Of a DNA stretch of 64,000 bases, positions 24,575 through 60,253 are shown piece by piece (within the stretch, counting starts at the first letter, position 1; each line of letters begins with the position of its first letter). This DNA is from Isoetes taiwanensis. Taxonomy: Eukaryota > Streptophyta > Lycopodiopsida > Isoetales > Isoetaceae. The stretch spans positions 1,612,001 through 1,676,000 of the forward strand of contig JAJEKV010000064.1 of the NCBI GenBank assembly GCA_021234155.1, in the 5' to 3' direction. The notes beneath the pieces are model-generated. The model worked only from the letters and a program-made list of their open reading frames with translations. It was not told the DNA's origin and ran no database searches. Made by a program: the position numbers and the translations under genes.

Positions 24575-24599
24575 GGGTGAAAGCATGTTGTAGTGGAAC
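24575..24599 (+). repeat. E1 left terminal inverted repeat
   Basis: GGGTGAAAGCATGTTGTAGT followed by GGAAC; exact inverse of 34735-34759. Confidence 0.9.
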
Positions 24600-25684
24600 A
24601 CCCTGGGTGTCCCCCCTGTCCTCCTAAAAATGTGGTGGGAGATATCAAATTTGTGGTGCGATTTTAAATGTTTGTTTGGCGCCTAGTGCATGTACTGCCC
24701 CGATTCAATCATTTCTTGAACTGCAACAACCCGATTCCTACGCCACCCGTCCCATTCCAATTTCCTACGCCACCCGGCCCCATTCCAATCTCCACCGAAC
24801 CGATTTCTAAACCCACGACCCACCCGCCTTTCCTGGAGCACACGGCTATGGCGCTTTAATCCGTTGTGGATCAATCCGTTCATACCTTCAATCATTTAAT
24901 TTGGAAGCAAATCTGCCTAAAAATCTCAAACCGGAGCACATGTAAGAGAAAGAGAACTCCGTAACAAGAACGGGATCATAAAAAGACGCCAAAGGAAAAG
25001 ACAAAGGGAAGCTAAAGAAGAATCAGCATAAATTGCAACAAATAGAGGGAGGATCCACTGTAAACGGCCTCTACCAAAGGATGGTATTAAAATTGTTATC
25101 TTCATTTCATAGCACCACTAAAGGCTTGTCTAACAAATGATAAGAAAGAGGTTTTACTAGATTATCTCAGGATGACACAATGGACAAATGCATTTGGCTA
25201 AGAGCTGAAAGATTTGCAAGCCAAGAGCATTGTGGTCAGCAACCTCGTGGCTTCCATTCAACTTGTGAAGAAGTCTAACAAAGAATGGCGCTTTAGCAGC
25301 CAAGAGTAGTTGCCTTGCTATGGCCGTAAGAGGAAGCATTAATACCGAAAGTGCTAATCCCGCCGCTGTTCGGGGTTTTGGTAAACCGCAAGGTGTTCAT
25401 CCTAGGAATCTTACCAAAGCAAAATTGAAGAGGGAAGAGATAGATTGCAAAAGGGGGAAATGGGTTTTGTACAAAAGAGTTAGAAGAGCAGATGCAATTC
25501 CCAATTCGTCATAGAACTTGTGCAGCAATTTTGGACCCAAAACAAAAGGGGGTCTCTCAAATGCAAAGGGTGTTAAGTTCTGGGAAGATTGGAACTAAAT
25601 GTAAGAGAGGATCATGCCACTCACTATCCGGAAGAATCACGTGTTATTTCATTTCTTCATCTTCACCACATTTTTATTGTTAAT

Positions 25685-26165
25685 GTGGTATGTGGTTAGT
25701 GATTGCTTGTGATATGTGGTTGCCGTGGTTAGTGATTGCTTGTGGTGTGTGGTGTCTATTAATCTTTGTGATATATGATATGTCTTTGCCTAGTGTGGTG
25801 AGGCACGTGGTGTGAAATAAATGTCGTCAATATATGCTTTGTGGTGCCTAGTGTGGTGAATAACATGGTGTAAAAATACATCTTTGTAATATATGCTATG
25901 TGGTGCCTAGTGTGGTGAAAAATATGGTGTAAAATAAATGCTCTAAATATAACGCTTTGTGGTGCCTAGTGTGGTGAATAATATGGTGTAAAATAAATGC
26001 TGTAATATATGCTATGTGGTCCCTAGTGTGGTGAATAACATGGTGTGGTGTCTAGTGTGGTGCCTAGTGTGGTGCCTAGTGTGGTTAAAAATATGGTGTA
26101 AAATAAATGCTGTAATATATTCTATGTGGTGCCTAGTGTGGTGAATAACGAGGTGTAAGATGAAT
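25685..26165. repeat. TGTGGTG-rich satellite-like array in E1
   Basis: Irregular tandem units built from 'gtggtgcctagtgtggtgaata', 'acatggtgtaaaataaatg' and 'ctgtaatatatgctat', roughly 60-70 bp each. Shorter sub-repeats of 'gtgtggtgcctagt' lie near 26040-26085. The core TGTGGTG is the motif that recurs just inside both E1 ends. Confidence 0.8.
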
Positions 26166-26212
26166 GTCTGTAATATATGCTATGTTTAATAGAAATCTCA
26201 CTGTTTAATTGA

Positions 26213-26918
26213 CAGGGTGAAAGTGACACACAAAAAAATTACATTAAGGATGGACAGAATGGGACAGAGAATCATTGGAAATCTGTCACATCAAATGCAA
26301 GGTCAATCATTCAAAAGCTGGCTGTGCAGGAAGCATTGGGGGAAAACCATAAATCTAGTTTTGCATGCAGACATTGGCTTATCACAATCCAGCTATGGCG
26401 GAAGAAAATGAAGGAGAACACGAGCACAAACAATTTCACCAGGTTCAAATGCAACAGATCCGGTAGGACCTATCTTTGGAGCAAATAAACCCAGGAACAG
26501 AGGCGGATATTAGGGGAGCGGAGGACCCATGAATTCGAGGTATTCTAGGCTTAAAACATAGGTTAATTCCCGATGGGCTTAAAGAATTAGAAGCCAAAGG
26601 CGTTGATAGGCGGTTGCCTTTCTTTGTAGTAGATGTTGTTTTACACGGATGATGTTGTTTACACGTGCGGTCGAGAGACTTAACAGAGCCGGGTGCAGCC
26701 GCCGGGTGGTTCTGGGGGTGGTGTATGATTCCGAGGATGAATTCTCAGCTCTCTTGAGGAAGGAAGAGGATATGTTCATCCAACTAAAGCAGGAAATGAT
26801 CCATGCTTCAGCCATTAAAAAGTGCTCGACAGGCCGGATGCATGGAGACACAACAACTGAGACAATACTTTATGAATCAGATCATAAGTGGGAGCGGCTT
26901 GAGAAGCTCATGTTTTAG
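26213..26918 (+). pseudogene. unrecognised coding-like fragments in E1
   Basis: Two stretches look translated. From about 26214 one frame gives YIKDGQNGTENHWKSVTSNA then RSIIQKLAVQEALGENHKSS and LITIQLWRKKMKENTS. From 26649 another gives VVLGVVYDSEDEFSALLRKE and DMFIQLKQEMIHASAIKKCS. A stretch between them reads GLIPDGLKELEAKGVDRRLP. Position and strand are where a transposase would be expected if E1 mirrors E2, but none of the E2 transposase motifs is present and I cannot name a family. Confidence 0.25.
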
Positions 26919-27504
26919 TGTTGTGGATTACACCAACTATTCAACGTAAACACTTGATGAAGTCTTGAACATTTGGAAGAAGAAGAAGAGTTACGATCTC
27001 ACAATGCGGGGATCGATTGAGGCACTGAATTGTATGTCATCTCTAATGCATTTTGATAATACTAGAAGCTTCGGGGTTATAGTTTTCCCTCGATTTTTCT
27101 CGCATACTTCATTTCATAAGAAGTATGAACTATTCTACCTGGGTATGGTAGATTTCCATATGTATTTTTCTCCCTTTGAAATATAAAAACAACGTTTGCA
27201 TCACCACCACGCTTTTCACCACGGCTTTCACCACATTTCACCATAATCAGCCGGGGGCATTGACCATTTTTTGACCCTCGAGGAAAATGGAATGGCTCTC
27301 AATTCTGATAGTATCTTGACTGATTTTGGTGACGGCAATATATGGATCCCAAATTAGGTCCCCGAATTGATATGAAAGTATTAGGAAAATCCACTTCATC
27401 AGAGCAATTGTGTAAAGGGTAATCGTGATAGATACTTTTATGAATATAAAGAAGTTTACATTTTGCATTCTCATTTTTTATGCTTGATTCTGAGAAATTT
27501 GTAC

Positions 27505-27945
27505 TTAGGCACTAAGGCACAGTGGTATCTGTTTTTAGAAACAGGGCACGTGGTAAAATGTAATTAGAAATTTACACAAGGCACAAATTTACACAAGACA
27601 CAAAGCCATTACAAACTATTTTCTGGATTAAACAAAAGGCACAAGGCACGGATTACGGTCGACACAAGGCCATCATATGTTAAAAACGTAAGATACCGTA
27701 ATACTTCGTAATTAGAAATTTACACAAGGTTCAAAAAGGCACAAGGCCATTATATATTCAAAAGGCACTAAAGGCCATCATATATTACAAAGAGGCACTA
27801 AGGCCCAGATCACAAGGGTGAGTTCACAAGGGGTGAGATCAAATGAAGGCACTAAGGCCTATATACCATCCGCTTTTTCAAAAATACAAAGGCACAAAAG
27901 GCCCACAGAGACTAACTTGATCAAAAAAAAAAAAAAGTGGCACAA
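27505..27945. repeat. AAGGCAC-motif degenerate repeat in E1
   Basis: 'aaggcac', 'ggcacaa' and 'cactaaggcc' occur many times in varied spacing over about 440 bp. There is no fixed period. Confidence 0.6.
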
Positions 27946-28635
27946 AGGGACTTCAAGCTTCATCTGTAAGAAAAAAGTGAAGAAAAATTAGTTTAGAATA
28001 CAAGAAAGCAAAAATTTAATGCATGCATGCTACTTACTCAGAGAAAATTTTGGAGTTCTAAAAAACTTCATGTTCTTCTTCGCCTCTTCTACCTCTTCTT
28101 CTTCTTCTTCTTGGTTACGGTCTTCGCCGATTAGGATTATCGAAATCTTGGGAATCAAATTGATCATCAAGAAGCTTCATCGAGGAATCGAATTAGAGGA
28201 GGATTCCACCTCTTCCGAAAGCTCGAAAGATCTTGAGCTTTAAGAGGTGGAATCAGCTCGAGCTCTCGTGCCTCGGGGCTCTCGCACTTGGGCTCGTGTT
28301 CTTGCTCCAAAGAAATGGTAATTTGGCCAAGATCCTATTTCATAACCGCCATCACCCGCGCCAAAGGAATTGAAAGCGGTTTCAGGCTTAGGGGGGGAGG
28401 CGAGAGAGCGAGAGGGAGAGGGAGAGGCAGAGAGGGAGAGCTGGCGGCAAAGCTCGACATTCTCATTGGAAGGAATTGGACGATGCTTCTCCTTCACGAC
28501 CAGTCATGCGAAATTAATTTCGTAGGCTACGATTTTAGGATTTCGTACCATTAGCATCTTTATTCCTAAAGATTTAGTAGGCAACTAATAATAACCTCGA
28601 AAGGACCATTATTTTATTTTCTAAAAAACATAAAA

Positions 28636-28638
<3 letters not shown>

Positions 28639-28692
<54 letters not shown>
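28639..28692. repeat. (AT)n microsatellite
   Basis: About 26 uninterrupted AT units, directly left of the minisatellite. Confidence 0.95.
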
Positions 28693-28694
<2 letters not shown>

Positions 28695-28719
28695 ATCCTG
28701 AATTGGCCATTCATGAATA

Positions 28720-29385
28720 GCTCCAACATGCCACCTACGATGCACCACATGATTCACCAAATGCACCACATGATTCACCACATGCACCATTTGCATCACC
28801 AAACATGTTGGTCAATGAAAGTCAAACATGTAACAAAGGTCATGTAAAGGCTCAAGCATGCCAAGGTGGCTCAAATATGCCACCTAGGCTCCAACATGCC
28901 AAGGTGGCTCAAACATGCCACGTAAGCTCCAACATGCCACCTACGATGCACCACATGATTCACCACATGATTCACCAAATGCACCTCATGATTCACCACA
29001 TGCACCATTTGCATCACCAAACATGTTGGTCAATGAAAGTCAAACATGTAACAAAGGTCATGTAAAGGCTCAAGCATGCCAAGGTGGCTCAAATATGCCA
29101 CCTAGGCTCCAACATGCCAAGGTGGCTCAAACATGCCACGTAAGCTCCAACATGCCACCCACGATGCACCACATGATTCACCACATGATTCACCAAATGC
29201 ACCTCATGATTCACCACATGCACCATTTGCATCACCAAACATGTTGGTCAATGAAAGTCAAACATGCCACGTAAGCTCCAACATGCCACCTACGATTCAC
29301 CACATGATTCACCACATGGTTCACCAAATGCACCGCATGATTCACCACATGCACCATTTGCATCACCACATCTATCACGACATGT
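28720..29385. repeat. ~210-bp minisatellite, four units
   Basis: Units start at 28720, 28926, 29144 and 29274, each with 'gctccaacatgccacc'. The first two are 206 and 218 bp, the third is 130 bp (inner part deleted) and the last is partial. Inside, 'caccacatgattcaccacatg' is repeated, again carrying CACCACA (TGTGGTG inverted). Long frames rich in Met and His cross this array in several phases; they reflect the repeat, not a gene. Confidence 0.9.
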
Positions 29386-29699
29386 AACACCACATTGTCA
29401 TGAATCTTTGAATACATCAATTTCTTCTGGAGATTTGAACTCCACCAGAGTGTTGCTCTGGTCACCCAGAGAAAAGTCTATTGTATACAATAGTATACAA
29501 CAATGTACATTAGAGTGTCAATGAAAGAATAGGTTACAAGAATAACCTCTTTGGTTACAATAATACAAACATGTGATTACAAGTAAAGATCTATTGATCT
29601 GTCAACCTCGACTTCATTACTACAAAGAATCGTGGCTTCACAACATCAATCATCATTACCGTGTCCAACCAACAAACAAGAACTAGAAATTGGTACACC

Positions 29700-30470
29700 A
29701 CGCAACAAACATATCGGGCCTCACATTGGATGAGTAATACCTTCAAATTCTGAACTCACCTTGCATTGGGATAGTATGTCCAAGTCTCAGACATCTTGCA
29801 GCCACAACTTTCTTTACAAAGACACATATAGCGGGACCACCACGACCAAGAATCGACCGAGTGGGGAACTTGTAATTTTCTTGTGACGCAGCTTTATGGT
29901 GCTTGGGAATTTTGTGTTTGCATCCTCAACAAAACTCATGACAAAGTCGGAGCCCTTGTACATTTCTAGGTTTTGTCAAAATGGTACACACACAGGCGGG
30001 TCGACATTTAACCGGGTGACCTCCAAGATAGCGATAACATCTTTGGCGAGAATGGTACATTCCGAAATTGCAAGTTGAGGGTGCAAATGAGTTTTGTCCT
30101 TTGAAGCAAGCTCATTCGACGGTAATGTGTAAATGAGCGGATCTATGAAATGGAACCTCTGTTCCATGTCATGCTTGATCTTGAGAATTGGTGCATACAC
30201 ACGCCAAAGTCCAAGGTCCGGTAAAACAAGATGATTTAAGAAACAACGAAAGACTTCAAATCTGAGTTGTTTATATTAAATTACTAACCTCATGAAGAAA
30301 TGGACTATCCTCCACCGAACCAATCCCTACTTTTCTCCAATATTACGATTGCCTCTTGATCAAGCACAAGAGGCTCTGCAATCCTTTAAACACTTCAAGT
30401 GGCAAGTGTTCTGGTCGGATGTGCGCTCTTAACACTGCAGTCCTCGTGCTGGTGGTGTAAGTTTACATTC
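29700..30470 (-). pseudogene. unrecognised coding-like exons in E1
   Basis: Read leftward, the pieces are HIRPEHLPLEVFKGLQSLLC (about 30430-30370), then YAPILKIKHDMEQRFHFIDP and AISECTILAKDVIAILEVTR (30200-29976), then NLEMYKGSDFVMSFVEDANT (about 29970-29910), and after a frame change RSILGRGGPAICVFVKKVVA with ARCLRLGHTIPMQ ending at a GTGAG donor-like site. They look like exons or a frameshifted single gene on the same strand as, and downstream of, the FCP1-like gene. I do not recognise the family. Confidence 0.3.
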
Positions 30471-30653
30471 AACAAATGGAAGATCATTGAAAACCTTGAG
30501 GAACATTGAAATAGCCAAGAAATGAACAATTGAAGTAAAACTTTGTTTATATTAAAAAGTCAAGAGAGGTTACATCATATACACAATAATACTATTTCTA
30601 GGCTTTAGTTCTATGTTTTTTCATCATATTAATACAAATTTGACTCTCGATTG

Positions 30654-31253
30654 TCAAACATATTCAAGATTTTGTTGCTTTTCGACATAACTTTGCACAT
30701 TCCACGCCTTCAAAGAACCCCCAAGCCAAACCTTTAGATCATTCATGAGGAAATTGCCATCTACTCTGTCAGGGCTCCAGCTGTTTGGACAGATCATGGT
30801 GTTTGGCGCATTGAGGTACCCTTTGTATCTGCTGTCATCAATGAGAAGCACGTTCTCTTTTGTGAAACCTGGAAATTCGTCGTAGACCTTTTTCAGGTGC
30901 TTCAAAAAAATTGGCTTTTTACTGTTAAATAAATTTGTGTTGGTACAGTGATCCTGACTCCATATGAACTTGAATTTGTCCTTGTGTTTCATCAATGCTC
31001 CCTTAACTATGACTCTCAAGTTTTGAGCCTGCAGGCTGGACCAAAGTGCTATATGAAAATTCTGACTGCACCAATCTATGAACTCGGCCCAGCCTGGTCT
31101 AGTTACTACCCACTTGGTTCTGTTAAGTGTGATCAACTTAACATCATCTTCTTTGGCAGTGGGTATGGACTCACTCTTGTCATAGCTTCTACCCAGAACT
31201 CCATTGTAGTAAAAAACAAGCAGGATTGGGCTTAACCTTGTAGTCTTCTGCAT
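30654..31253 (-). CDS. FCP1/NIF-like phosphatase domain, C-terminal exon of the E1 gene
   Basis: A 199-codon open stretch matching the FCP1 homology (HAD-type) domain used by CTD phosphatases and TIM50-like proteins. Motifs in order: VVTRPGWAEFIDWC at 49-62, ALWSS at 69-73 (motif II), KKPIFLKHLKKV at 112-123 (motif III lysine) and LLIDDSRYKGYLNAPNT at 136-152 (motif IV double Asp). The expected nucleophile motif, D-x-(D/N)-G, reads FYYNGVL at 14-20: the first Asp is Tyr15 (TAC, one base from GAC) and the second position is Asn17. As written it is probably a pseudo-phosphatase. The ATG at 31253 may not be the start, because upstream segments on the same strand belong to the same gene by comparison with E2. 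Confidence 0.75.
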   Translation of the reverse strand: MQKTTRLSPILLVFYYNGVLGRSYDKSESIPTAKEDDVKLITLNRTKWVVTRPGWAEFIDWCSQNFHIALWSSLQAQNLRVIVKGALMKHKDKFKFIWSQDHCTNTNLFNSKKPIFLKHLKKVYDEFPGFTKENVLLIDDSRYKGYLNAPNTMICPNSWSPDRVDGNFLMNDLKVWLGGSLKAWNVQSYVEKQQNLEYV

Positions 31254-31467
31254 GGACAGAGTTGGTGCAGGGCTGGAAACTTCTGCTTCAGCATTTCTTG
31301 GTGCAGGGCTGGAAACTTCGCTTCAAAGATCTATTCGATGCGGGGATGGAAACTTCTGCTTCAGAATGTCTTGGAGGTGTCTTTTGCTTGGAATTCTGCT
31401 CTTGCTTTTTCTCTGAGACACTTCCAGCTGCAAAAATTTAACAGATTCGGTAACTATATGGGTCAAA

Positions 31468-31992
31468 TTAAAAAGAAGACAGGCACAAAAGGTTGGAAGT
31501 TACCTTGTGACTTACATTCCGCAACGATTTGTTCAGATCATAACCCCGATGCATCTGCTGATTTGGCGATTGGTGTGGAGCATGACTTAATGCATCCGTT
31601 GATCCGGCGATTCTTGTCCGCTTGGAGCACCCCATCAAGCTTGACTTGATGCACCCTCTTGATTTGTTGACATCTACTGATTTGTCCGACTTCCTGTAAC
31701 CTGATGCATCTTCTGATTTGCCCGAGTTTCTATCTGTGTCTAATGCTTTCGAAGGGGTGTGAGTGTCTTGTCCCCCTAACTGACCACATTGTACATCTAT
31801 ATCTACAAAGTAGGGATGAAGAAGTAAGCTACATATCCCAATTGCATCAAACAAGACTTGGTTACCTTTGAGGGTAGAAAATAATTCCCTTTTTGGTGTG
31901 CTAGATGGACTCACATAGTCATTGCCACCAGTATGAACAGTTAGACTCGAATTAGTAAACGGCACCATGCTCGCAAACTGGAATTGAATCAC
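31468..31992 (-). CDS. low-complexity linker region of the E1 FCP1-like gene
   Basis: A 174-codon frame rich in Ser, Asp, Lys and Asn (SGKSEDASGYRKSDKSVDVN, then SSLMGCSKRTRIAGSTDALS). It lies between the zinc-type exon and the FCP1-like exon on the same strand, where E2 also has a low-complexity segment. No domain is visible. Whether all of it is translated is uncertain. Confidence 0.35.
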   Translation of the reverse strand: MIQFQFASMVPFTNSSLTVHTGGNDYVSPSSTPKRELFSTLKGNQVLFDAIGICSLLLHPYFVDIDVQCGQLGGQDTHTPSKALDTDRNSGKSEDASGYRKSDKSVDVNKSRGCIKSSLMGCSKRTRIAGSTDALSHAPHQSPNQQMHRGYDLNKSLRNVSHKVTSNLLCLSSF

Positions 31993-32491
31993 AATTGATT
32001 GTAACTATGCTTTGGTTTTTAACTAAGCTCCGGACTTTTTTACTCTCTTTTACGATGTTCCTATTTTTATATATCTAAAGTATCCCCTAAAATGAGCGAA
32101 ATCTCTCATCCTGAGGGGCACTTTAGATACACAAAACAGAGAAGCAAAAGAGACTAAGCCAGCCAGATCTTGTTTTATGTCGGGGCTTACTCCTTTTCGA
32201 AGTTTCTGCTTGAGGTATCTAATTAAGCCACCGAGTGGCGATGTCATCCTAGGGGCAAATTAGATACGATAAACAAAAACGAAGGAGACTAAGCCAGGCT
32301 TACTCTCTTTTGAGCTACCTATAAGTGCTCACCGTAAGTGCCTCGTTAGCTTGAAGTTGCTTTTGATCCTCCCTACTCACACCTAAGGCTTGTACCCATC
32401 TTTGTAGAAACTTCATGACAAAGAATTCTCAATGCAACTTGATGATTACAAATCCAGCAAAGTGAACATAAATTTGTCAATGAGAATACAA

Positions 32492-32692
32492 TTATACTAA
32501 GCACTTCAGGAATTTTGTTATGAAGTACCTCAAGAGGCTGAGCAGACATGGAAGATGGTATTGGTGACTGCATTCAACAATCAAAGTTGGTAGTGGTTTT
32601 CCCATCCACTGGAGGATCTTGCCACAGAATGGACAGCCACTACCATAATCTTCAACCTTTATCAAGCTCTGGAAGTAGTGGATCCAAGACAA
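32492..32692 (-). CDS. zinc-type (RING-like) exon of the E1 FCP1-like gene
   Basis: The frame contains GCPFCGKILQWMGKPLPTLI then VECSHQYHLPCLLSLL. CxxC followed after about 18 residues by C-x-H-x2-H-x2-C looks like part of a RING or PHD-like zinc cluster, though a full set of eight ligands cannot be counted here. The matching part of E2 reads CGHHYHVSC. Fusing a zinc cluster to an FCP1-like domain is unusual to my knowledge. Confidence 0.45.
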   Translation of the reverse strand: MSWIHYFQSLIKVEDYGSGCPFCGKILQWMGKPLPTLIVECSHQYHLPCLLSLLRYFITKFLKCLV

Positions 32693-32813
32693 ATAAAGGA
32701 AGACGGTCCTTGCAAGACAGAAACCTCTCTAACCTTGGTTCCAAAGACTTTCAATGTCAAGCAGTTCCGCCTTCCACCGGCGGCCAGATTAAGCTCCTCG
32801 ATTTTTGTGCCGC

Positions 32814-33140
32814 TCAAGTTACGGTAATAGTTCCTTCCGGCTCAGACCTCGTATCTTGGCATATAGCCCGAATACCGTCTGCACGACTTGGTTTATCCTT
32901 AATCATTCCTTCCCATTTTTTTAAATCTTTATTCATCTTCTCGGTCTGGAACTCAAGTTGTTGAACCTTCATTTGTAGCACCTGCAGGCTTTGATCACAA
33001 GTTTGCAACCTTGCCTTACACTGAATCACTTCTGATCTTGTAGAGTTGATCCATTCTCCCAGTGTCCTGTTGAATTCATCTGGAAAGTAATCCAAGGTTA
33101 GTACCACATGACACAACAGGCACCACTTTACACACCACAA
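32814..33140 (-). CDS. coiled-coil exon of the E1 FCP1-like gene
   Basis: Over about 90 codons the text is EFNRTLGEWINSTRSEVIQC, then QSLQVLQMKVQQLEFQTEKM and NKDLKKWEGMIKDKPSRADG. Hydrophobic residues recur at heptad spacing, which predicts a coiled coil. The first 20 or so codons of the open frame run into the CACCACA-rich array and are probably intron. Confidence 0.45.
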   Translation of the reverse strand: MWCVKWCLLCHVVLTLDYFPDEFNRTLGEWINSTRSEVIQCKARLQTCDQSLQVLQMKVQQLEFQTEKMNKDLKKWEGMIKDKPSRADGIRAICQDTRSEPEGTITVT

Positions 33141-33500
33141 ATTCCATCATGACAAACTTTGCACCACAAATGGCGTCATATTCACCACATGTGGTGTGGC
33201 ATGTGGCACCAAACTGGTGCCACATGCCACACCACATATGGCACCACAATGCACCCAAGGCACCACATATGGCAATCCATTACTTCGCACCACAAATGGC
33301 GTCAAAGACACCACATGTGGTGCAAAATGTGGATCCATAGTGGTGCCACATTAGACACCACATGTGGCACCACAATGCACAGAAGGCACCACATCCGGCA
33401 GGCATCCACCACCCCATATGTGGCAGATAGCGTGGTGCAATATTTAGCGCAGCAGTTGGCACCACATATGGCAGACAATCCACCATTCACAAGTATCACC
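33085..33500. repeat. CACCACA/TGTGGTG palindromic array in an E1 intron
   Basis: The short units 'caccacatatggc', 'ccacatgtggtg' and 'gcaccacaa' alternate in both orientations over about 400 bp, between the coiled-coil and N-terminal exons. Many units are self-complementary. Confidence 0.8.
33192..33234. repeat. perfect 20-bp stem hairpin
   Basis: TGGTGTGGCATGTGGCACCA, a three-base loop AAC, then the exact inverse. With one mismatch the stem extends about seven more bases outward. In RNA or single-stranded DNA this would form a strong hairpin. Confidence 0.9.
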
Positions 33501-33833
33501 ATATCTAACATCACATATGTATGACACTAAGTATAGAAACATATGGAAGCCAATTCACTATTCAGAAAAGGTACCACGTTTGGTACTATATGTGACACTA
33601 CATATACTACAAACTACATTATTAACATATAATTGGCACCATATGACCGTCCCAGAACACATTTGGAGCTACATACTCATGAACTGAAATTATCCACCAC
33701 AACTCGAAACTAGCAAAGACAAATTTCCTACACATAACTTACAACACACCCAAATGAAGAAGTAAGTGGTGTACACGATTGTTCAAGCTTGCTAGACCTT
33801 GCTGGAAAATAACAGTTCCAATATTAAATTGCA

Positions 33834-34411
33834 TCATATGGTGGTTCCAGAAGAAGAGGGTTGAAAAGTACCTATTTTTTCAGTGATTTTCCCCGAGATT
33901 CTTCTTACAGCTTTAGGAGGCTTGAATTGTGGCCTAGTCATTTCAAGAGAGGAAGCATCATCTGTGGCATGTTGCTCTGCTTCCTCACTATTTGAAATGC
34001 TTGCATTCTTCCTCTTACGTTGGGACGGAGAGGCTTGGACTCTTTTTCTCTTAATCAAGGCCGAGAAACTCAACCCGGTTTATTTCTTTTCCTTTTGTGT
34101 GAAGGTAATACTTGACCATAGTCTGTGAGGCCATGCCTCCCCAGGCACACTTCCTGCCTGTGATTTTTTTGTAAAGGCACATATATTCATTATACCTCTC
34201 CTTGCTCAGATTCTTCAACCTGCATGATGAAACAAAACAATATTCTAAACAACAGAGAATCATGGGCATCCCCGAATCTAGAATGCAACTCACCGTAAGT
34301 GGATTTTCCTAATACTTTCGGTCCCCAAACGGATTTCGATTTCTTCTTGTGTGGCGTAATGCTTTTCTTTGCCTCGTACATTTCCTTGTAGGTGTATCCC
34401 GTGGCATTCAA
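33834..34411 (-). CDS. N-terminal region of the E1 FCP1-like gene
   Basis: Three adjoining frames on the minus strand: YTYKEMYEAKKSITPHKKKS with VWGPKVLGKSTYGELHSRFG (34411-34250), KNLSKERYNEYMCLYKKITG then RKCAWGGMASQTMVKYYLHT (34214-34080), and a basic, serine-rich stretch SALIKRKRVQASPSQRKRKN that ends with KAVRRISGKITEKIG before a GTACTT donor-like site. Frame changes between pieces mean short introns or decay. The basic clusters look like nuclear localisation signals. E2 has a comparable N-terminal region with ARYNEV where E1 has ERYNEY, a weak but suggestive match. Confidence 0.4.
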
Positions 34412-34460
34412 GTCCGGTATGATCGAGCCATTTAGTGATCGATCTTCTTGCCGAAATCAG

Positions 34461-34573
34461 AAATGGTCTTGCGGATTAAGGGGCGTGTCGAGTTTTTGAG
34501 GGAAAATGAAAATTGAGAATCGAAATGGTCTTGCGGATTAAGGGAGCGTGATCGAGTTTTTGAGGGAAAATGA
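34461..34573. repeat. 62-bp tandem duplication near the E1 right end
   Basis: 'aaatggtcttgcggattaa', 'gcgtg', 'tcgagtttttgagggaaaatga' occurs at 34461-34509 and again at 34523-34573. It lies between the N-terminal exon and the terminal repeat, where the gene's promoter would be. Confidence 0.85.
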
Positions 34574-34734
34574 TCGTGTACGTTGCTGAATAAGCCTGAA
34601 TAAGACTGAAAGGACAAAATTTTGAATAAGTAATCATGTGTATTTCTGAAAAAATAACTCCCTCTCCCACTACAAATTCGGTAGTTCCCACCACACTTAG
34701 CACCCAAAAATGTGGTGCTAAAATGCACGTTTTT

Positions 34735-34759
34735 GTTCCACTACAACATGCTTTCACCC
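34735..34759 (-). repeat. E1 right terminal inverted repeat
   Basis: Exact inverse of 24575-24599; followed by the TATC duplication at 34760-34763. Confidence 0.9.
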
Positions 34760-48150: not shown

Positions 48151-48155
48151 TTCAG

Positions 48156-48699: not shown

Positions 48700-48712
48700 G
48701 GCTGCATTGACA

Positions 48713-50199: not shown

Positions 50200-50232
50200 A
50201 AGTAACTGTTAAAACGCCAAAGCATTGCAGCC

Positions 50233-50239
50233 TATAAAA
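50233..50239 (+). promoter_or_regulatory. TATA box of the plus-strand PR-1 gene
   Basis: TATAAAA within TGCAGCCTATAAAACCA, 46 bp before the ATG at 50285. Its position rules out the in-frame ATG at 50225 as a start. Confidence 0.75.
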
Positions 50240-50284
50240 CCAGCAGAGATGCTGCTAGAATTCTATCAGCCTGTGATTTCAGGA

Positions 50285-50770
50285 ATGGCAAAATTATTCG
50301 CATCATCTTTTGTTCTGTGCTTGTTTATAGGGCATGCGTTGGCTTCTGACAAAGCTGATTTTTTGAGAGCTCACAATTCGGCAAGGGCACAGTTGGGTCT
50401 TCCTGCAATGAGATGGAGCAAAACCCTGTACAATTATGCTTTCACTTATGCAAAAATGCAGGTTAACAACTGCATAAATGGCAGGCTGGTGCATTCTGGA
50501 GGGCCATATGGGGAGAATTTGTTCTGGGGTTCTGGCAAGGATTGGAGCCCGAATGATGCAGTCCAGGCTTGGGTTTCTGAAAAACAGTATTATAACTATA
50601 ATACTAACACATGCGTTTATGGCCAGCAATGTGGGCACTATACTCAGGTTGTTTGGCGTAGCTCTGTCAAACTTGGCTGTGCTAAGTTTAGATGTGATAA
50701 CAGACCTACTGTTTACATCATTTGTAGCTATGGCCCTCCTGGTAACTATATTGGCCAAAAACCTTACTAG
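50285..50770 (+). CDS. PR-1: pathogenesis-related protein 1 (CAP/SCP domain), secreted
   Basis: A 161-residue intronless paralogue of the gene at 48156-48641, of equal length and with no gap by eye. The signal peptide is MAKLFASSFVLCLFIGHALA; the mature part begins SDKADFLRAHNSARAQLG. It keeps GPYGENLFWGSG, CGHYTQVVWRSSVKLGCAKF, the six cysteines and the C-terminal PPGNYIGQKPY (CAPE-like, preceded by CSYG). Differences from its partner cluster in the signal peptide; the domain itself is strongly conserved, which suggests both are functional. The two genes are divergently arranged about 1.6 kb apart and share promoter sequence, so an inverted duplication including the promoter is likely. Confidence 0.95.
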   Translation: MAKLFASSFVLCLFIGHALASDKADFLRAHNSARAQLGLPAMRWSKTLYNYAFTYAKMQVNNCINGRLVHSGGPYGENLFWGSGKDWSPNDAVQAWVSEKQYYNYNTNTCVYGQQCGHYTQVVWRSSVKLGCAKFRCDNRPTVYIICSYGPPGNYIGQKPY

Positions 50771-52492: not shown

Positions 52493-52520
52493 GGGTGAAA
52501 GTATGCTGGTGGGTATCAAA
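52493..52520 (+). repeat. E2 left terminal inverted repeat
   Basis: GGGTGAAAGTATGCTGGTGG then GTATCAAA; inverse of 60226-60253 with one mismatch. Confidence 0.9.
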
Positions 52521-52813
52521 TAAACGCGGTTCAGCACCCAGCACCAGCACCCTTCATACTATTTTTTCCACCCTTCACCAATTGAAGTGTAACCTATGCT
52601 ATGCCCGTCACTTCACATAGGGCGTACTGCTTCAATCATAACCCGCTAATACCCACCGTTGAACTAATGACCTGCGGACCGAAGGGTAGCGAATTTTGAA
52701 TTTGTAATTTGCAACCGTGCTCCCCACCTTTTGCTACTCCGGCCAAATAGCCCGCGGAGAAGAAGCTCGAGAATTTCCGCATTCACTCTAGTATTCCAAA
52801 ACTCAAACGCACT

Positions 52814-53345
52814 ATGGTGAAGAAGGTTGTTAATCCGCCGGCTCAGCCAGCAATTCCAATGGATGCCATGCGCAGGGTAAGCAAAATGCACTGCCAATTT
52901 TGATGGCTTACGATGCCCTGTTAATTTGTTTTTCTTGCTTTCTTTCAGCCCGTAAGAAACGCGTGCCTCTAAGACCGGGACCGGCCGATTGCCGAACCGA
53001 GGAGGACTTCCATGCTTATCTTGGTCTATCAAACGAGGGTGTACATCCCTCTCAATTTCTCGAACGGATGTGATATCTGCAGCCCGATATAATGAGGTTT
53101 GGGACACCAATGGTGTCATTCCCAACAAGACATCCATCGACAAAGTAAGGCCAGAGCATGAAGAAGCTCTAATTGAGCTGTTGAGCAAGATATACCCAGA
53201 AGGGTTGAAGAATAGAGAAGTAAGGAAGACGGTTTCCTTTTTATTTGCATTCAACAACTGCCAGAGGGCCAAGCAGGATCCAGAAAATTTCAAGGTTAAT
53301 TGGGCGGCGATGGCGGCAAAAGCGAGCCTATTCGAGCAAGGTCAA
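52814..53345 (+). CDS. N-terminal exons of the E2 FCP1-like gene
   Basis: Exon 1 from ATG 52814 reads MVKKVVNPPAQPAIPMDAMR and ends at a good donor (AGG/GTAAGC, about 52876). An acceptor (CTTTCTTTCAG, about 52948) opens exon 2: RKKRVPLRPGPADCRTEEDF, HAYLGLSNEGVHPSQFLER, then after a one-base shift near 53065 TDVISAARYNEVWDTNGVIP and EEALIELLSKIYPEGLKNRE. The exon 1-2 join does not keep frame as written, so at least two small indels are present. The family is unknown; the EEALIELLSKIYPEGLKNRE part looks like a helical, possibly DNA-binding domain. Confidence 0.5.
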
Positions 53346-53804
53346 GAGTGAACCCCAAAGACCGGCCTCCCCAGGAGCACAAAGCCAGAGCCCAAAAAAT
53401 CACAAAGCAGACAACAAAGACTGAAAAGCATAGCGAGAAAGGCCCGCCTCAGCAGAATCACTTAGCCAGAAAATTAGAAGGGAGGTTGTCATTCGTGAGT
53501 ATTGAATGTGTCCAAAGAAGATTCTCAAATTTTATGGGGAAAATATTTCCGTCTGAAAGCATGATCCAAGATATGCAGAAGCCCTAAAAATGCAAAGCAG
53601 AGTGACCTAGTGTCAAAGAAGGAACAGTCGCACAATCTCGTGCAAAGGGCACCTTCTTCTACCACCGCAGAGGGGAAGTTGAAGACCATAAAGGATAATA
53701 TTGCACGCCTTCAAGCACTACCGATCCTAATGCAAAAATCTCTCGAGATTCATTCTTTGGAGGGGAGAAAGATATGGCGTAATATATGTCAAGTCCCTAC
53801 TTGA
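53346..53804 (+). CDS. charged middle region of the E2 FCP1-like gene
   Basis: Two frames follow: basic and Gln/Lys-rich (KARAQKITKQTTKTEKHSEK, ending near 53585 at a stop) and TTAEGKLKTIKDNIARLQAL with LMQKSLEIHSLEGRKIWRN to 53804. The second looks helical and occupies the place of the coiled-coil exon of E1. Confidence 0.35.
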
Positions 53805-53984
53805 AATGGGGGTGGGCCAATAGATCAAACCTGTAGTAAAAAAGGTGGCTGCACTAATCTGGCGAGATTGCCAACAACGAGTCCCTCCTTGCAAAAGCCC
53901 AAAGAAGACTTACGAGAATGTCACCAGCCGAGGGAGCCGACCAAGAGAAATGATCACCGGGTCGAAGATCACTCCAATACCATT

Positions 53985-54175
53985 CGATTGCCAATTGGAG
54001 ATGAGGAGAGATGCTCCACCGTGGTCTTGCATTCCGTGATGATTACACCCTCGACTGCGGGATGAAATGTGGACATCATTATCACGTTAGCTGCACCCGG
54101 TTTGCTCATGGAAAAAGGATGTCGCCGAGTGCCGCAGAGACCATTCCTCTGAGGGTTAGTGCGGGAAATAGGTAA
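53985..54175 (+). CDS. zinc-type segment of the E2 FCP1-like gene
   Basis: One frame reads DDYTLDCGMKCGHHYHVSCT then RFAHGKRMSPSAAETIPLRV. C-x-H-x2-H-x2-C (CGHHYHVSC) matches CSHQYHLPC at the same relative place in E1. A CxxC partner upstream is not clear in the same frame. It was found by reading all frames; no long ORF covers it. Confidence 0.4.
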
Positions 54176-55625
54176 GCTTAATACAATGAAAGGGAAGTGT
54201 TGCATCTTTGGAACATCTCACAAAACCGAGAAGAAGATAATTGATGTTGATGAGCATGTAGCCACAACTCCCCGAGCAGCGGGGAAAAGGAAACAGTCAA
54301 CACACCAAAAGTAAAAGGACCCCGTGGATCAGCCAAGCACAAGTCCACAAGGGTTCACACTCCACAGCCAAGACATGGGAAAAAAGGTGCATGCCTATTT
54401 TCAGGGTCTCATTTTGAATTGGCAAAGATTAGAAGGTGCTTGTAGACATTGGACAACAAACTACCGGCCATCTTGAAAGACATCGCAAAGACTGGCAAAG
54501 CACGCACAGTCTTTGGAGACACCAAAGCATGCAGAATCCAAGGGAGATTCAAGTAGTACTGATGGTGCCAACAATTATATTGTAGTTCCAAATTCTGCAG
54601 CTGCCTCTACAAAGGCCTCCTGTAACATCATTCTTGTCTGCGAGGGAAGGAAAACGATGGCGAAGATGTCGGCAATCGATTCGCATCGTTAAGCGGTGAG
54701 CAGTTGACAAGGTCAAGGGCCGTGAAGGTTGTGGAAGAAGAAAGTGAGGGTGAGTCGAAAATGACCTTGATGAGGGCGTCCCCTATAGAAGTATCATTTG
54801 GAAAAAAAAAACAAAGCTAATATAATTTTGCCTTATGTATTTCAGGCAAGCAAACCTTGATTTTGCAAGACAACCCTAAACCATCAGCCAAAAGGTTTTT
54901 GTTCAAACAATTAATATATTTGATCCATGTTTTATTCCACCTTTAATGTGCAAATTTTGGTTTGGATTATTCATTCAACTTAGGCTTCTGTAAAAACTTG
55001 TCTGCAGAAAAAGAAGGCAGCCAATGGTTATACTTAGTGAATCTGATGAAGAAGACAATACAGATAAAGAAGTGCCAGCACAAACTCTAACATACAAAAG
55101 GTGCCTGTTATCCTGTTACATTTCAGAATATGTATTCTCTACAAATTTCAGTTGTTAATTGGAGCTCATCCTTGCATGCAGGAGAACAAGACAGGTCGTG
55201 AATGAAGAACCCGAGGACAAAGGCACTGCAAGGGTTACTGATAGCCAGGAAACACCCATACATTGGGGGCAGGGAGATACTAATAAGGATGTATCTAACT
55301 ATGGCTATCAGCACTCTCCATCATCTGGTAGCAAAGATAAAGCGAGTCCAAAGAATTCGCAAAGAAGGTCCAAAGACTCGATAGCACTTCCCAACAGAGT
55401 CCGGACACATCGCAGGCGGGGACAAGCACGATGCAAAGACACATCGACGGTGGTTGCAAACGCCGAGGGATGGACACCCGTGACGGAAGTTGATGGTGCT
55501 TGACACCGCACGCATACACCTGCAGAGAGAATGAACGGGAAAATCTTGCCTCCACCACAAACGAACCATGTTGTAAAAGAAACAAGTAAGTACCTCATTT
55601 GCGGACCCGGTATCATGAGTTTGTG
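54176..55625 (+). other. low-complexity linker of the E2 FCP1-like gene, with introns
   Basis: The region contains Ser-, Lys- and Asp-rich scraps (LTRSRAVKVVEEESEGESKM near 54700; RTRQVVNEEPEDKGTARVTD near 55190; KDKASPKNSQRRSKDSIALP near 55340), separated by AT-rich, intron-like sequence with AGGCAAG/GTGCCTG junctions. No domain is recognised. Just before 55625 a different frame reads RYHEFVEWGNRRG, which corresponds to RPGWAEFIDWC of the E1 FCP1-like domain. Confidence 0.35.
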
Positions 55626-56197
55626 GAGTGGGGCAATCGCAGAGGTTTGATATTGTGATTTGGAGTGCTTCTCTACTTCGGAATACAAGGGATATGGTGG
55701 ATGCATTGTTCCCTGATTTGCAGACCAGATTCTTGAAGGTATATGGTCAAGAGCATTGCTATGCATGCGAGCATTCAACCAGCACAGAAAAGCAACTTTT
55801 TTTCAAGGAGTTGAAGGTTGTACTTGAGGATTTCCCTCAGTATCATGGTATGATTTTCTTGGTTGATGACAGCCTGCACAAAGGGTTTCTAAACCCTGCA
55901 TACACAACCGTTCTTGTTATGCCTTTCAAGGGGCAAGAAGAGGACAACTTTTTGCCCAAGTTTGTGTGTCCAGCTTTGGAATACTTGTCTTCTCATACAG
56001 TACAGGAAACGATCTCACAAATTGACATCACTGATGCATGGTTGGAAAAGGAGACAGTTGCAGTGCTGGATTACTGCCTCAACAACTATCTTGTCTCGGC
56101 CTACTATATCCTCAATGCTCCATTACAAGTACAAAGGCAGCTGCTGGGCACCCTTCCTGGCGACCAGCATGACTCTGAAGACTTCGATGACTCATGA
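55626..56197 (+). CDS. FCP1/NIF-like domain, C-terminal exon of the E2 gene
   Basis: About 188 codons to the stop at 56197. It begins in frame with QRFDIVIWSASLLRN (motif II), then KQLFFKELKVVLEDFPQYHG (motif III lysine) and IFLVDDSLHKGFLNPAYTTV (motif IV double Asp), and ends in an acidic tail, DQHDSEDFDDS. There is no ATG at the left edge (the frame opens with GTG), so this is an exon end, not a start. The preceding motif (RYHEFVEW) is in another phase, and the nucleophile motif DxDG was not found in the 500 bases before. It therefore lacks a visible catalytic Asp, as in E1. Confidence 0.65.
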
Positions 56198-56628
56198 AGT
56201 AACCATTGTACACTCCTTTTTTGTAATATATATGTATGATTGCTTTGTGTTATCTTGAGTATTGAGTGATCTTGAGTGATGTCTCTAATCTTGAGTGTAC
56301 AATTTTCTGTAATATATATCAAGCTTACTCTCCAATACTACAAGCATTGTTTCCAATACTAAAATACTCCAATACAGCAGTCCAATACTACAAACATTGT
56401 CTCACAAGCATTGTCTCCAATACAATGATCAAAATTTGAGACAAGTACACAAGTAACTACAGACCTGTTACAATGATAAAACAACTAGGTCAAAGCATAT
56501 TCAACCTTCATATGGCAGACTGTCAAGGATCATCTGGTGAGTAGCCTGTTCAAGGGAAAATCTGTTGGTGCCAGGAATCTGATTCATCTCAAATTTGATA
56601 GCTGATACGTGATGACTGTACTGGAAGG
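56198..56628. other. spacer between the convergent E2 genes
   Basis: AT-rich. 'cttgagtgat' and 'ccaatac' are repeated several times (56258-56310 and 56333-56425). It presumably holds both 3' ends. Confidence 0.5.
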
Positions 56629-59600
56629 TCAGGCCTTTGTCTCAAGTAGCTCCCAACTACCATCGGGCTGGACAGCATAGTACAAACCAGCCAACACGTG
56701 TTCATCCACATTGAAGGTCTGACCCCAGCTATCCTTGACAAGGACATGCCTCGGCTTAACATATTTGACAACATAGAAATCTGCATTCTCCTGATTTCCC
56801 TCCTCGGCTACAACAGCAAAGTTATCACATTCCTCTATGTTTCCACTAAGCCATTCTCCATCACCTTCAAAAAATGCCTCATCGATTTCGTCTTCAGTAC
56901 CTTCACCAGTAGACTTTTCTGGCTTTAGTGTAACATATTTCCAATTCTTCAACCTATGCTTGTTCACACAAGATGACCAGTTTCCTTTCAAACAGTTACC
57001 ACAGAAACAACTTAAACCTCTATGAGCCACCCTTGTGCTTGATTTGGCCAAGTATGTCCTGGATCTTTGTGTATTTGCTTGGTCCCTTCCACCTCGCATG
57101 ATCCGGTAATGGTCTGTCCTATCAACATCATCCTTTCCATTACCGGAAGTACACTGCAAGGAGACAACAAGTATTGTAGCTCACAGACAAAGATAATCAA
57201 AGACTACTCATCACATTACAAATAGCTTCACGACAAAGACTTAAAGCGGATGAAAGCACTACTCAAAGACATTCAAAGCCGGTTCTGAAAAAGACTACTC
57301 AACGTAATCTGGCGGATGAAAGCATAATACCTTTTGATGTCCCCGTTGTTGGTACCTTCATTCCAACGAGTTGCGAATTCACAAGCATCAAGAACACCCT
57401 AAATCTCACCCCATCATACTTGAGTCGCTCTCTAGTGAATGCCCCTTTAAGGACTGCCCCTTGCCCATTGTGCTCTCCCTTACCATGGGCTGTCCCAAAG
57501 AAATTCCATACTATTTCCTTCCCTAGCTCATGGTGATATCTTGGTAGGAAATAGAATGGCCGGGCAGATTTGAATTGGCTAGAACAACCATCGACCAAAC
57601 TATATGCCCGAGAAATCTACACCATTTGATACAAGCCATGAATTGTGCTTTCTAAGACAGTGCTGCACAAAAAGAGTGTCATGAATCTTGTCATCACTCA
57701 AGTAAAAATGGGTTTCCTTCAATAGTTTTCTGATCCTAGAACTGATGTCCATCCTATACGTGATGTGGACGAGAATTGTTATCTGGTCATTGTGCCAATG
57801 CTGGCTTTGAACCTCCCTTTGTATTTTTATGTTGTAATTCTCTGCAAAATCAATTACAGAAACAATGGTGCCATCTTGGATATTGTCCAGGCAACTCCTG
57901 AATTGGATGGCCTGCCATCTAGCCCTGTAATTGTATGGCACGAATATCTTCAATGTGGAACACAAATATGAAATGAAATCCTTCACTGCCGTTCTCTTGT
58001 AAGACAATCTAAGGACTGGCTTTGGTCCTTTCTTTTTTTTCCCCTTGCCATTTGAGGTCTCGTCTTGTGCTGCAGCTTCAGACTGTAACCCACCAGCTTC
58101 CTTGGATTTCTTACTTTTGTTTCCCTTCTTCTCAACTTGTGCTGCAGCTTCAGGCTGTGTCCCACCAGCTACCTTGGATTTCTTACTTTTGTTTCCCTTC
58201 TTCTCAACTTGTGCTGCAGCTTCAGGCTGTGTCCCACCAGCTACCTTGGATTTCTTACTTTTGTTTCCCTTCTTGGTGGCATTGGCTCTTTTCTTTCTCT
58301 GCCACTTGGCACCTCCTTGGTAACGCATGCCTCGCAACTCCACCAACTTCTTCCTATCTCCACCGGAATCAGTAACAAGGTCCAGAGCATAAAAATGAAG
58401 AAGATTAGCGCAAGTTAAAAGCACAAAAGCGATTCACGGATGACCGGACATATCAAAGATGTTTCAAAGATGCAATAAAGAGAGTATTACCTTTTCAAAC
58501 GTCTTCCATTCAAGCAAGAACTCATGATTCTCTCTTTCTCTTGGACATATAGGAAGACTTTTTATGCCACACTTCTGACATTGTTGCATCAAGCAGTCAT
58601 GTTTATACCATTCTTCACCCTCGCTCTTGTTGCAAACCACATCCCTCCAGAGCTCGCTGGTTGAGTCATACGTATGTTGGCTGGCCAGACACTTCTCACC
58701 AGGTCCACAGACCTCGCAAGTGCACTTGCACTCTTCACCATGAAATCCAGTTTTCGCTGACCTTAATGCATTCAAGGCTACCCTGGCATACTCCAACTTC
58801 ATATGGTATATGCAACAACAGGTTTCCCTTTCTGATACTTTCTTTACATAAATAGGCTTCAACTTCTCGAAAGCCTTTAAGCAAACATGGTGTTCAGGAT
58901 GTGCCTTTTTGTATTGTTGAAATAGTTGCAGCTGAATGGTGGCCGTTGGTTAGAAATATTTATGCAATAATAGCAAAAAAAAAAATTGTATGGAAACTTA
59001 TACCTGTGTGACCTCCATAAGGTGCAAGGGATAAGAAATTCGGAAGCCTGACTCTCCAACAGTGTTCACAACATCTTTCTTGCAAGGAGAGACTCGGCTA
59101 TTTTGTTTCCAGAATTCAGTTATGCTTTGCTTGCAAGCAGGGGTGAGAGAATCGCACCTCAACCTCCTTTGGAAGCAAGACCACGGACCATTTCCAAGGA
59201 CGGCTTCCGATTTTCTTAATGCAGCAGTTGCAATTGTTGACCTCGTGCAACCTATCATAAGAAATATTGCACATTAATCAATGAACATATCCCAGCCAGC
59301 ATCACTCAGCAGATACAAGCACTTAAAAGTATAAAGAAGCACAGGCATGAAAGCAAGAATTAGATGTACCTAACAGCCCAGCCATAGTGGAATTGCATCT
59401 AGATTTTGTGGAAGAAGCCATCACCAGTGTCGAGGTTCTGGCTCTCCAAATATCATGGTTCCTTTGCCTCTTTGTGGTTGCCATTGTCTGTTTCAAGTTG
59501 TTGAGCAACACCCCCGCTGCCTTGCACTCCTTTGGATTTGGCAAAATTCCAGTATCTGAGATTTCCATTTCGTGGTGATGAACCACCCTCTTCATCACAT

Positions 59601-59919
59601 CGGCCTTGAGTTCGGGTGAATGCTTTTTGGTGAGCTTGTTGAAGTAATCAACTACAAGCTTGGCTATTTCTTGCCTGCGTCTCGTGCTCAGATCCTCCCG
59701 TTCAACCGCTGCTTTCCTCATCTTATTCCGTAATCTGTATTCTCTCTTTCTCTCTGCATCCAATTTCTTGTAAATTGCAGAGGAAACTGTATCTTCACGC
59801 GATATTTCCTGTGTTGCATTGACATCCAACAAATCTGGAACACTGTTTTGGAATTCATCAGGCCGAAAGTTCAATGCTAAACGTGTGATTGCCTCCAGGC
59901 CGGCATCAAGGAGCGCCAT
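56629..59919 (-). CDS. transposase-like gene of E2, multi-exon, decayed
   Basis: Exons by eye: 59919-59370, 59251-59004, 58931-58491, about 58424-57600, 57598-57330 and 57153-56629, most with GT/AG borders. Order of parts: a basic helix-rich N-terminus (KLDAERKREYRLRNKMRKAA); a Cys-rich region (ETCCCIYHMKLEYARVALNA, CKCTCEVCGPGEKC, CLMQQCQKCG); a Lys-rich repeat linker; then the likely catalytic core VIDFAENYNIKIQREVQSQH, HDTLFVQHCL, DGCSSQFKSARPFYF and FFGTAHGKGEHNGQGAVLKG; finally CFCGNC and a C-terminal module, FYVVKYVKPRHVLVKDSWGQ. The spaced acidic residues (D of DFAEN, D of DGCSS) suggest a DDE-type fold. The family resembles, from memory, multi-copy uncharacterised proteins of invertebrates. 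A stop and a one-base shift lie just before DGCSSQFK (57600), and no AG precedes exon 4. It is probably inactive. Confidence 0.6.
58069..58278 (-). repeat. 69-bp tandem repeat encoding a Lys-rich linker
   Basis: Three in-frame units coding KKGNKSKKSKVAGGTQPEA and AAQVE, the first (58069-58140) more diverged. The period is a multiple of three, so the frame is kept. It joins the Cys-rich region to the catalytic-like core and may also act as a nuclear localisation signal. Confidence 0.85.
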
Positions 59920-60202
59920 GAAATTCCTGAGAGAGGGAGAATAAGTGAATTGGAGGGAGAATTTTCGCGGGCCATGAGGTCGAGGTAGTTGTGTGCTCGA
60001 TCGAATTTGCAACGTACTACCACTCGCGCGAAAATCCAGCCAAAATCCCACAATCATTTTCCTAACGGTTCGTTGGTGAGGTGGACGTGCGAGTACATGA
60101 AGGGCGTCAAAAAAATGACGGGCAGTTACGCCCACCAGCACCCAAATTAAGCAAAAGCAGGGGTGCTTTAAGCGGGCTAAACCCCTGCTATAAGCATGCT
60201 AT
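59920..60202. other. E2 right sub-terminal region
   Basis: Contains the probable promoter and leader of the transposase-like gene. The open frame extends upstream of 59919 (through SLQFTYSPSLRNF), so the true start may be further right. 'gcaggggtgctttaagcgggctaaacccctgc' is an imperfect inverted repeat at 60156-60187. Confidence 0.5.
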
Positions 60203-60226
60203 AAGCATGCGTCCGGACGCATGCTT
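60203..60226. repeat. 24-bp perfect palindrome abutting the E2 right TIR
   Basis: AAGCATGCGTCC followed by its exact complement GGACGCATGCTT. It touches the inner edge of the terminal repeat. The left end has no such palindrome. Confidence 0.9.
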
Positions 60227-60253
60227 TTGATACCCACCAGCATACTTTTACCC
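60226..60253 (-). repeat. E2 right terminal inverted repeat
   Basis: Inverse of 52493-52520 with A instead of G at the fifth base; followed by GGCA at 60254-60257. Confidence 0.9.

Follow-up and report, generated by a model that had tools for sequence, protein, structure and literature searches.

What is a gene with an FCP1-like domain doing inside DNA transposons of the lycophyte Isoetes taiwanensis? The question is raised by a stretch of 64,000 nucleotides (the window; contig JAJEKV010000064.1, positions 1,612,001 to 1,676,000), in which two transposons, E1 (window positions 24575-34759) and E2 (52493-60253), each carry such a gene. Our best explanation, to which we give a probability of roughly 40%, is that both belong to one clan of terminal inverted repeat (TIR) transposons with two convergent genes, one for a transposase and one for an accessory protein in which a no longer catalytic NIF domain would dock a target protein and a RING domain would have it ubiquitinated. 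A preliminary description, made from the letters of the window alone, had pointed to copies in "related ferns", which does not fit a lycophyte; most of its other claims are taken up where the results bear on them.

E1 and E2 are confirmed as real TIR transposons, each with an FCP1/NIF domain gene. The inverted ends of E1 are identical over 26 of 26 bp and those of E2 agree over 27 of 28 bp, and 4-bp target site duplications (TSDs), TATC and GGCA, respectively, are found on both sides. As counted by eye on the alignment, 18 of 25 positions are equal between the two left ends, with the first nine identical. Blastn at E<=1e-3, with the low-complexity filter on, detected no match between the DNA of E1 and that of E2. 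The ends, the duplications and the great divergence in DNA are thus as originally described. When the Isoetes taiwanensis genome (1,658,258,908 bases in 1,110 contigs) was searched with up to two mismatches, 789 E1-type ends (402+387) and 909 E2-type ends (445+464) were found, against 0 genome matches for the reversed pattern of either element, so the end patterns do not occur by chance. Perfect 4-bp TSDs, varied in sequence, were present at all ten sampled pairs of ends (six E1, four E2), and were also seen by eye on contigs C499, C927 and C1044. Long copies of E1 on C499 and C554 are about 87-93% identical in pieces and cover most of its length, and copies of E2 occur on C1044 (93%), C927 (88-94%) and C1019 (81%). 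Inverted ends together with a fixed TSD in many copies, by which TIR (cut-and-paste) DNA transposons are recognized, were established for E1, E2 and a further family, E4.

The presence of the accessory gene was followed in pairs of ends, counted from the 100 ends listed per search. For E1, 18 facing pairs of exact ends, 8-16 kb apart, were picked by eye among the matches listed. Ten were read without prior knowledge at two predicted places, and seven of these had NIF DNA, 91-95% identical (C30, partial; C33, 95 bp only; C64, C67, C118, C501 and C674). Four more were previously known to hold NIF, namely C306, C499 and C790 by coordinates and C554 by a DNA match there. Out of the 18 listed pairs, 11 hold NIF, three are without a NIF find and four (C88, C151, C297 and C300) were left unread. 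For E2, six pairs 6.5-8.5 kb apart were found among the matches listed, the window copy being a seventh. NIF DNA, 82-86% identical, was found in all three that were read without prior knowledge (C28, C70 in part, and C146), and the match list places NIF in those on C927, C1018 and C13. Far from being absent from most copies, which would have spoken against the proposed tie between gene and element ends, the gene was found in most of the E1 pairs and all of the E2 pairs read in this way. On C357 (203356-214747) an E1 TIR pair adjoins, at one end, an E2-type NIF match, and the positions suggest insertion of an E1 copy into an E2 element.

At least 58 of 150 typed E2 NIF matches have an E2 transposase match within 5 kb, a count made without the short secondary fragments that close the transposase match list; the chance of such a linkage is about 0.0009 per match. 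The transposase is on the opposite strand in all 58 linked loci and downstream, i.e. convergent, in 57, mostly about 2 kb off. Among 32 NIF rows typed as E4-like by profile span, not by alignment, at least 14 are linked to one of the 150 E4-type transposase matches listed, and in all 14 the transposase lies downstream on the opposite strand. Since the accessory gene is found inside TIR pairs and regularly opposite a nearby transposase, its belonging to the elements is supported.

Throughout families E2 to E6 the accessory gene faces one kind of transposase, which no Pfam model names. E4 (L097, on C1051) has TIRs of 30/30 bp beginning GGGTGTAAATATGG, the TSD CAAA, and a NIF gene convergent with a transposase 51% identical to that of E2. 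The E4 transposase is itself 59% identical to the one that converges with a NIF gene in E5 (L127, C1019), and 58% identical to the one that converges with a RING gene in E6 (L125, C970). In E3 (L021, C985) the NIF is about 50% identical to that of E1, and a transposase remnant lies on the opposite strand. No element ends of E3, E5 and E6 were found in the stretches read, and these three are assigned by gene content. An E6 without NIF was considered, as the E1 NIF query found nothing there, and was rejected when 16-row NIF queries matched the first part of the domain.

Residues invariant in the five transposase core rows include IDFAENY, WSDGC and HGKGEHDG, with acidic residues among them. The transposase exons had no Pfam match above cut-off, none in PHROGs and none by PDB sequence profile at E<=5, and no confirmed relatives were found in the viral contig and genome contig collections searched. 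In the model of L125 1430-3211(-), residues ~465-579, the only well modelled part, resemble BAH, Tudor and chromo-barrel domains (Met1, EBS, ZMET2, MSL3 and UHRF1) with Z scores of about 4. This is only a hint that the transposase C-terminus may be BAH/Tudor/chromo-barrel-like, and families outside the list of that fold search are not thereby excluded. Compared by description only, the clan is like Sola in its 4-bp TSD, TIRs, size and seed-free plant host: the excerpts consulted describe Sola elements as mostly 2-9 kb long, with 4-bp TSDs, TIRs and a DDD-type transposase, present in a moss and uncommon in flowering plants (PMC10741241, PMC3627910). The Sola2 families in the excerpt of PMC3627910 differ in having AT-rich TSDs, whereas those found here are varied. 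The literature searched yielded no Sola element that carries a RING-NIF gene. Mutator/VANDAL was rejected as a classification because the TSD is 4 bp long and not 7-12 bp, the length that the excerpt of PMC10741241 gives for Mutator.

The accessory protein consists of an N-terminal domain, a coiled coil, a RING-H2, a linker and the NIF domain, an order that is clearest in L023 and L097, where the gene runs over several open frames and was read without spliced models. The same order, with a C-x-H-x2-H-x2-C cluster between coiled coil and linker, is found in E1 and also in E2, where the frames are broken. This cluster is part of the RING-H2 pattern of the two clearer copies. The N-terminal domains of E2-type (open reading frame (ORF) of L022) and E4 proteins are 37% identical over 120 residues (E=3e-18), and the RING regions of E1, E2, E3, E4 and E6 are mutually similar in a set of eight sequences. 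RING-H2 domains have eight metal ligands in the pattern CxxC..CxHxxHxxC..CxxC. All eight are present in L023 (E2 type). In L097 (E4) the first H is replaced by N, in L125 (E6) the final CxxC is Cx3C, and only the first six positions are seen in the rows of E1 and E3. No DNA-binding domain was recognized in the accessory protein by Pfam profile searches.

The NIF domain was identified with Pfam PF03031 (cut-off 21.8 bits) in both E1 (49.3 bits) and E2 (40.7 bits), and the two NIF proteins are 32% identical over 108 residues (E=1e-11). Together with the common domain order, this bears out the claim that two diverged families share an FCP1-like accessory gene. An AlphaFold2 model of the NIF domain of the E2-type locus L022, with a predicted local distance difference test score (pLDDT) of 82, matches SCP2 (Z 20.0; 2q5e, root mean square deviation 2.1, 162 aligned), SCP1 (Z 19.9), Tim50 (Z 17.1) and Fcp1 (Z 16.8), so the comparison with FCP1, SCP and TIM50 that had been proposed comes out in favor of a common predicted fold (Z ~17-20). 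Among solved structures, UBLCP1 is the closest by sequence profile (8e-12).

Active HAD phosphatases of the carboxy-terminal domain (CTD) of RNA polymerase II share the motif DxDx(T/V) with both Asp residues, which in SCP1 act as nucleophile and general acid, respectively. The element NIFs lack this motif with both Asp. Every one of the 16 aligned NIF rows (13 of the element families and three of group X, see below) has Asn for the second Asp, and all 17 distinct E1 loci, each a high-scoring relative of the window copy, have Tyr for the first, the nucleophile. The first Asp is kept in 6 of 8 E3 loci and in 14 of 14 E2-type loci showing the motif, which is not visible in the frame listed for L007, L010 and L024. 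Binding without catalysis is possible for such a domain. In a 27-row tree, element NIFs and group X separate from the host genes with DxDxT with a support of 100/100. No branch sets off the element NIFs alone (2 changes), and the inner order is unsafe, the branches being long. No confirmed NIF relatives were found in the viral contig collection, and PHROGs gave no NIF match.

Host-type NIF genes are clustered at C1018:22.9-26.8 Mb, C1060:3.38 Mb and C1084:1.88 Mb, with DxD in those read, and such genes are apparently expanded in the genome. Group X is another multicopy NIF gene, with the motif DMNGVLLKC, found at L098 3832-4839(-), L099 3682-4608(-), L071, L073, L074 and L076. As judged by eye and without Pfam support, it sits downstream of ParB- and methyltransferase-like ORFs; a further ORF of L098 matches DUF7869 at E=0.00048, below the cut-off. 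There were no convincing TIRs in the stretches of group X that were read, and it is possibly another mobile family with NIF.

Selection on the NIF gene was estimated against the mutation spectrum of non-coding E1 DNA, taken from three E1 copies only, as the neutral expectation. The ratio of observed to expected nonsynonymous changes is 1.02 for the 16 E1 loci (p=0.58), 0.73 for the 11 E2 loci (p=0.026) and 0.61 for the 8 E3 loci (p=0.018); recent changes in E1 thus look neutral. The within-family constraint is modest, because changes common to at least two copies give, on their own, 1.82 for E1, 0.71 for E2 (p=0.086) and 0.60 for E3 (p=0.19). Over the longer distance between L022 and L066, nonsynonymous divergence (dN) is 0.175 and synonymous divergence (dS) 0.965. 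The uncalibrated dN/dS values (E1 0.73, E2 0.31, E3 0.35) were discarded as a measure of constraint, which largely vanished under the non-coding spectrum. Loci L005, L010, L023 and L075 were left out of these analyses, and L066 also of the calibrated one; the choice of mostly open copies brings some bias into the estimates. From these comparisons the gene reads as constrained in the long run, weakly so within E2 and E3 and undetectably in the recent E1 burst. Purifying selection, which the preliminary description had singled out as a check, is accordingly indicated over the L022-L066 distance and, weakly, within E2 and E3, and fails to appear in the recent changes of E1.

The following mechanism would unite these parts. 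E1 and E2 would represent one TIR clan in Isoetes, with 4-bp TSDs and ends that begin GGGTG, whose members carry two converging genes. One encodes a transposase, its core read as DDD/E-like, and the other the accessory protein, in which an N-terminal domain and a coiled coil are followed by the RING-H2, a disordered basic linker and the SCP/FCP1-fold (NIF) domain. Ends, TSDs, copy number, gene layout, domains, the predicted fold and the altered catalytic residues are what the data show, and the role drawn from them is inferred. The NIF domain would no longer remove phosphates and would keep its fold in order to dock a phosphorylated nuclear protein, which could be the tail of RNA polymerase II or some other factor. 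Ubiquitin ligation would be recruited to the docked protein by the RING. Expression of the element might in this way be shielded from silencing, or the amount of transposase might be tuned. E1 would descend from such an element by loss of the transposase, with the accessory gene retained, and would presumably be moved in trans. A phosphoprotein-docking adaptor with a RING is our best guess at the role of the accessory protein. The joining of a RING to an FCP1-type fold with a damaged active site suggests that the elements co-opted a regulatory domain of the host. We regard as unlikely a bolder version, i.e. a clan of superfamily scale that escapes silencing through its own RING ligase, docked by a dead SCP/FCP1 domain, and a BAH/Tudor-ended transposase.

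Several observations weigh against the docking and ubiquitination explanation. Verified ends are at hand for E1, E2 and E4 only, and the NIF copies compared were high-scoring and mostly had open frames. In three of the ten E1 pairs read (C357, C590 and C645) NIF was not at the predicted places, where it may be displaced, and the recent changes in E1 are neutral. Between the RING gene and the transposase of the E6 copy L125 lies only the first NIF part (IVLDLNGVLVKT, ~1386-1454(+)), and since the 16-row queries found nothing beyond this part, the copy is truncated in NIF. Pfam RING profiles stay below cut-off (best E=0.00048; zf-RING_2 20.8 bits against 27.3), the RING frame of L125 has no Pfam match at E<=0.1, and the weakest RING-RING pairs in the eight-sequence set have E ~0.001. 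The model of the transposase core is too poor to use (pLDDT 46), so the DDD/E-like reading rests on the conserved residues.

Second proteins of other plant transposons bind element ends or the transposase, and the accessory protein may likewise be a co-factor of transposition, with RING and NIF serving as protein contacts and not in ubiquitin transfer or escape from silencing. The regular convergent pairing with the transposase would fit such a role, as would the coiled coil with the conserved N-terminal domain and the retention of the gene in E1, an element that depends on mobilisation in trans; however, E1 spread while its NIF drifted neutrally, and no DNA-binding domain was recognized, which leaves this alternative tentative and on the whole rather unlikely. 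An active CTD phosphatase that dephosphorylates the RNA polymerase II tail in favor of element expression, the role put forward originally, would agree with the fold (Z 20 to SCP1/SCP2) and with the nucleophile Asp in every E2-type locus that shows the motif. It is nevertheless very unlikely, to judge from the residues, because the second catalytic Asp is replaced by Asn in all aligned rows and the nucleophile by Tyr in all E1 loci.

The gene might instead be a passenger, a captured host gene spread by hitchhiking without a role for the element. Gene capture is known for plant transposons (excerpts of PMC13317346), and the neutral recent changes in E1 (1.02), the three of ten E1 pairs without the gene at the predicted places and the truncated NIF of the E6 copy read would all be expected of a passenger. 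Against it stand the two-gene layout common to E2 and E4 despite their different ends, with E3, E5 and E6 joining by gene content, and the constraint in E2 (0.73, p=0.026), in E3 (0.61, p=0.018) and over the L022-L066 distance; we consider it improbable. Finally, this genome has many host-type NIF genes, and a host gene family could merely lie near transposons, but the element NIFs sit inside TIR/TSD pairs and branch, together with group X, separately from the host genes with DxDxT (100/100), so that hardly any weight can be given to this possibility.

No published account of a transposon carrying a NIF/FCP1 gene, with or without a RING, was found within the literature collection searched. Accessory genes with another captured domain, Ulp1, provide a comparison; Ulp1 is a SUMO protease. 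Going by the excerpts of PMC13317346, the nearest described plant parallel found are the Ulp1-carrying VANDAL/Mutator-like elements (MULEs; Kaonashi, KIU) with VANC anti-silencing proteins, likewise plant DNA transposons with a captured host domain in an accessory gene. They are described there as non-TIR MULEs with Ulp1, and Mutator TSDs are 7-12 bp (PMC10741241), whereas RING, phosphatase fold and 4-bp TSDs are found here. In fungi, several transposon lineages similarly carry one epigenetics-related accessory gene, the TET/JBP dioxygenase (PMC12730594), which is a different enzyme and is spread across several superfamilies, unlike the single transposase clan (plus group X) of Isoetes. SCP1/SCP2, CTDNEP1, FCP1, UBLCP1 and TIM50 share the predicted fold (Z 16-20); the element proteins differ from them in having DxN for DxD (YxN in E1), in being transposon-borne and in having a RING in the same gene. 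Long terminal repeat (LTR) elements are the most abundant repeats reported for this genome, according to the part of PMC8566536 consulted, and the clan would add to it high-copy DNA transposons for which no description was found. As several families keep a RING together with a catalytically altered SCP/FCP1 fold, transposon biology may here be tied to ubiquitin and to recognition of the polymerase tail, and the accessory protein is a concrete, testable candidate for expression control by transposons of a seed-free plant.

Reading frames are broken in both window copies. E1 is 10,185 bp long and has no clear transposase, at most a weak candidate remnant of a transposase N-terminal exon at 25437-25687(+), where tblastn queries from an exon of L127 (E=0.005) and from one of L097 (E=0.028) match at the same place. 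Its accessory gene runs on the minus strand. The N-terminal exon (34054-34308) is 57-59% identical to the N-terminal domain of E3 (L020/L021), the coiled-coil exon (32814-33146) has weak matches below cut-off, mostly to coiled-coil Pfam models, and the RING-like cluster CPFCG...CSHQYHLPC (32495-32728) is 62% identical to the RING of L020 and 43% to that of L097. The NIF/FCP1-like domain (30654-31322; PF03031 E=5.8e-13) has the motif FYYNGVLG, in which Tyr takes the place of the nucleophile. Repeats rich in CACCACATG-like words were observed at 28720-29370 and 33156-33400, and are present also in the copies on C499 and C554.

E2 is 7,761 bp long. On its plus strand the accessory gene comprises an N-terminal domain region with broken frames (52956-53351), which is E4-like as read through the corresponding L022 ORF, a coiled-coil region (53565-53801, by eye, related to L023 6729-7649) and a decayed RING region (54005-54172, CGMKCGHHYHVSC by eye), for which L023 has the full RING-H2 pattern. 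These are followed by the NIF/FCP1-like domain (55619-56197; PF03031 E=2.5e-10), the start of which is in another frame here. The convergent transposase gene, missing from the preliminary description, runs on the minus strand from about 59919 down to 56632. It begins with N-terminal exon 1 (59323-59919, an open frame with the start MALLDAGLEAI picked by eye) and exon 2 (59001-59273, an open frame, similar by eye to an exon of L127), and continues with a Cys-rich exon (58467-58949, aligned with L097 and L126). The next exon (57603-58433), with at least 159 genome matches, includes basic repeats and the first core part (VIDFAENY), the core being kept in E4, E5 and E6. The second core part (DGCSSQFK, HGKGEHNG; 57302-57616) is in another frame in the window copy, and the C-terminal region (56632-57180) aligns with L023, L097 and L125.

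Between the two elements, ORFs resembling pieces of a non-LTR reverse transcriptase were seen by eye at 44701-46851. Two very similar, oppositely oriented ORFs, PR-1/CAP-like by eye, are located at 48156-48800(-) and 50213-50770(+).

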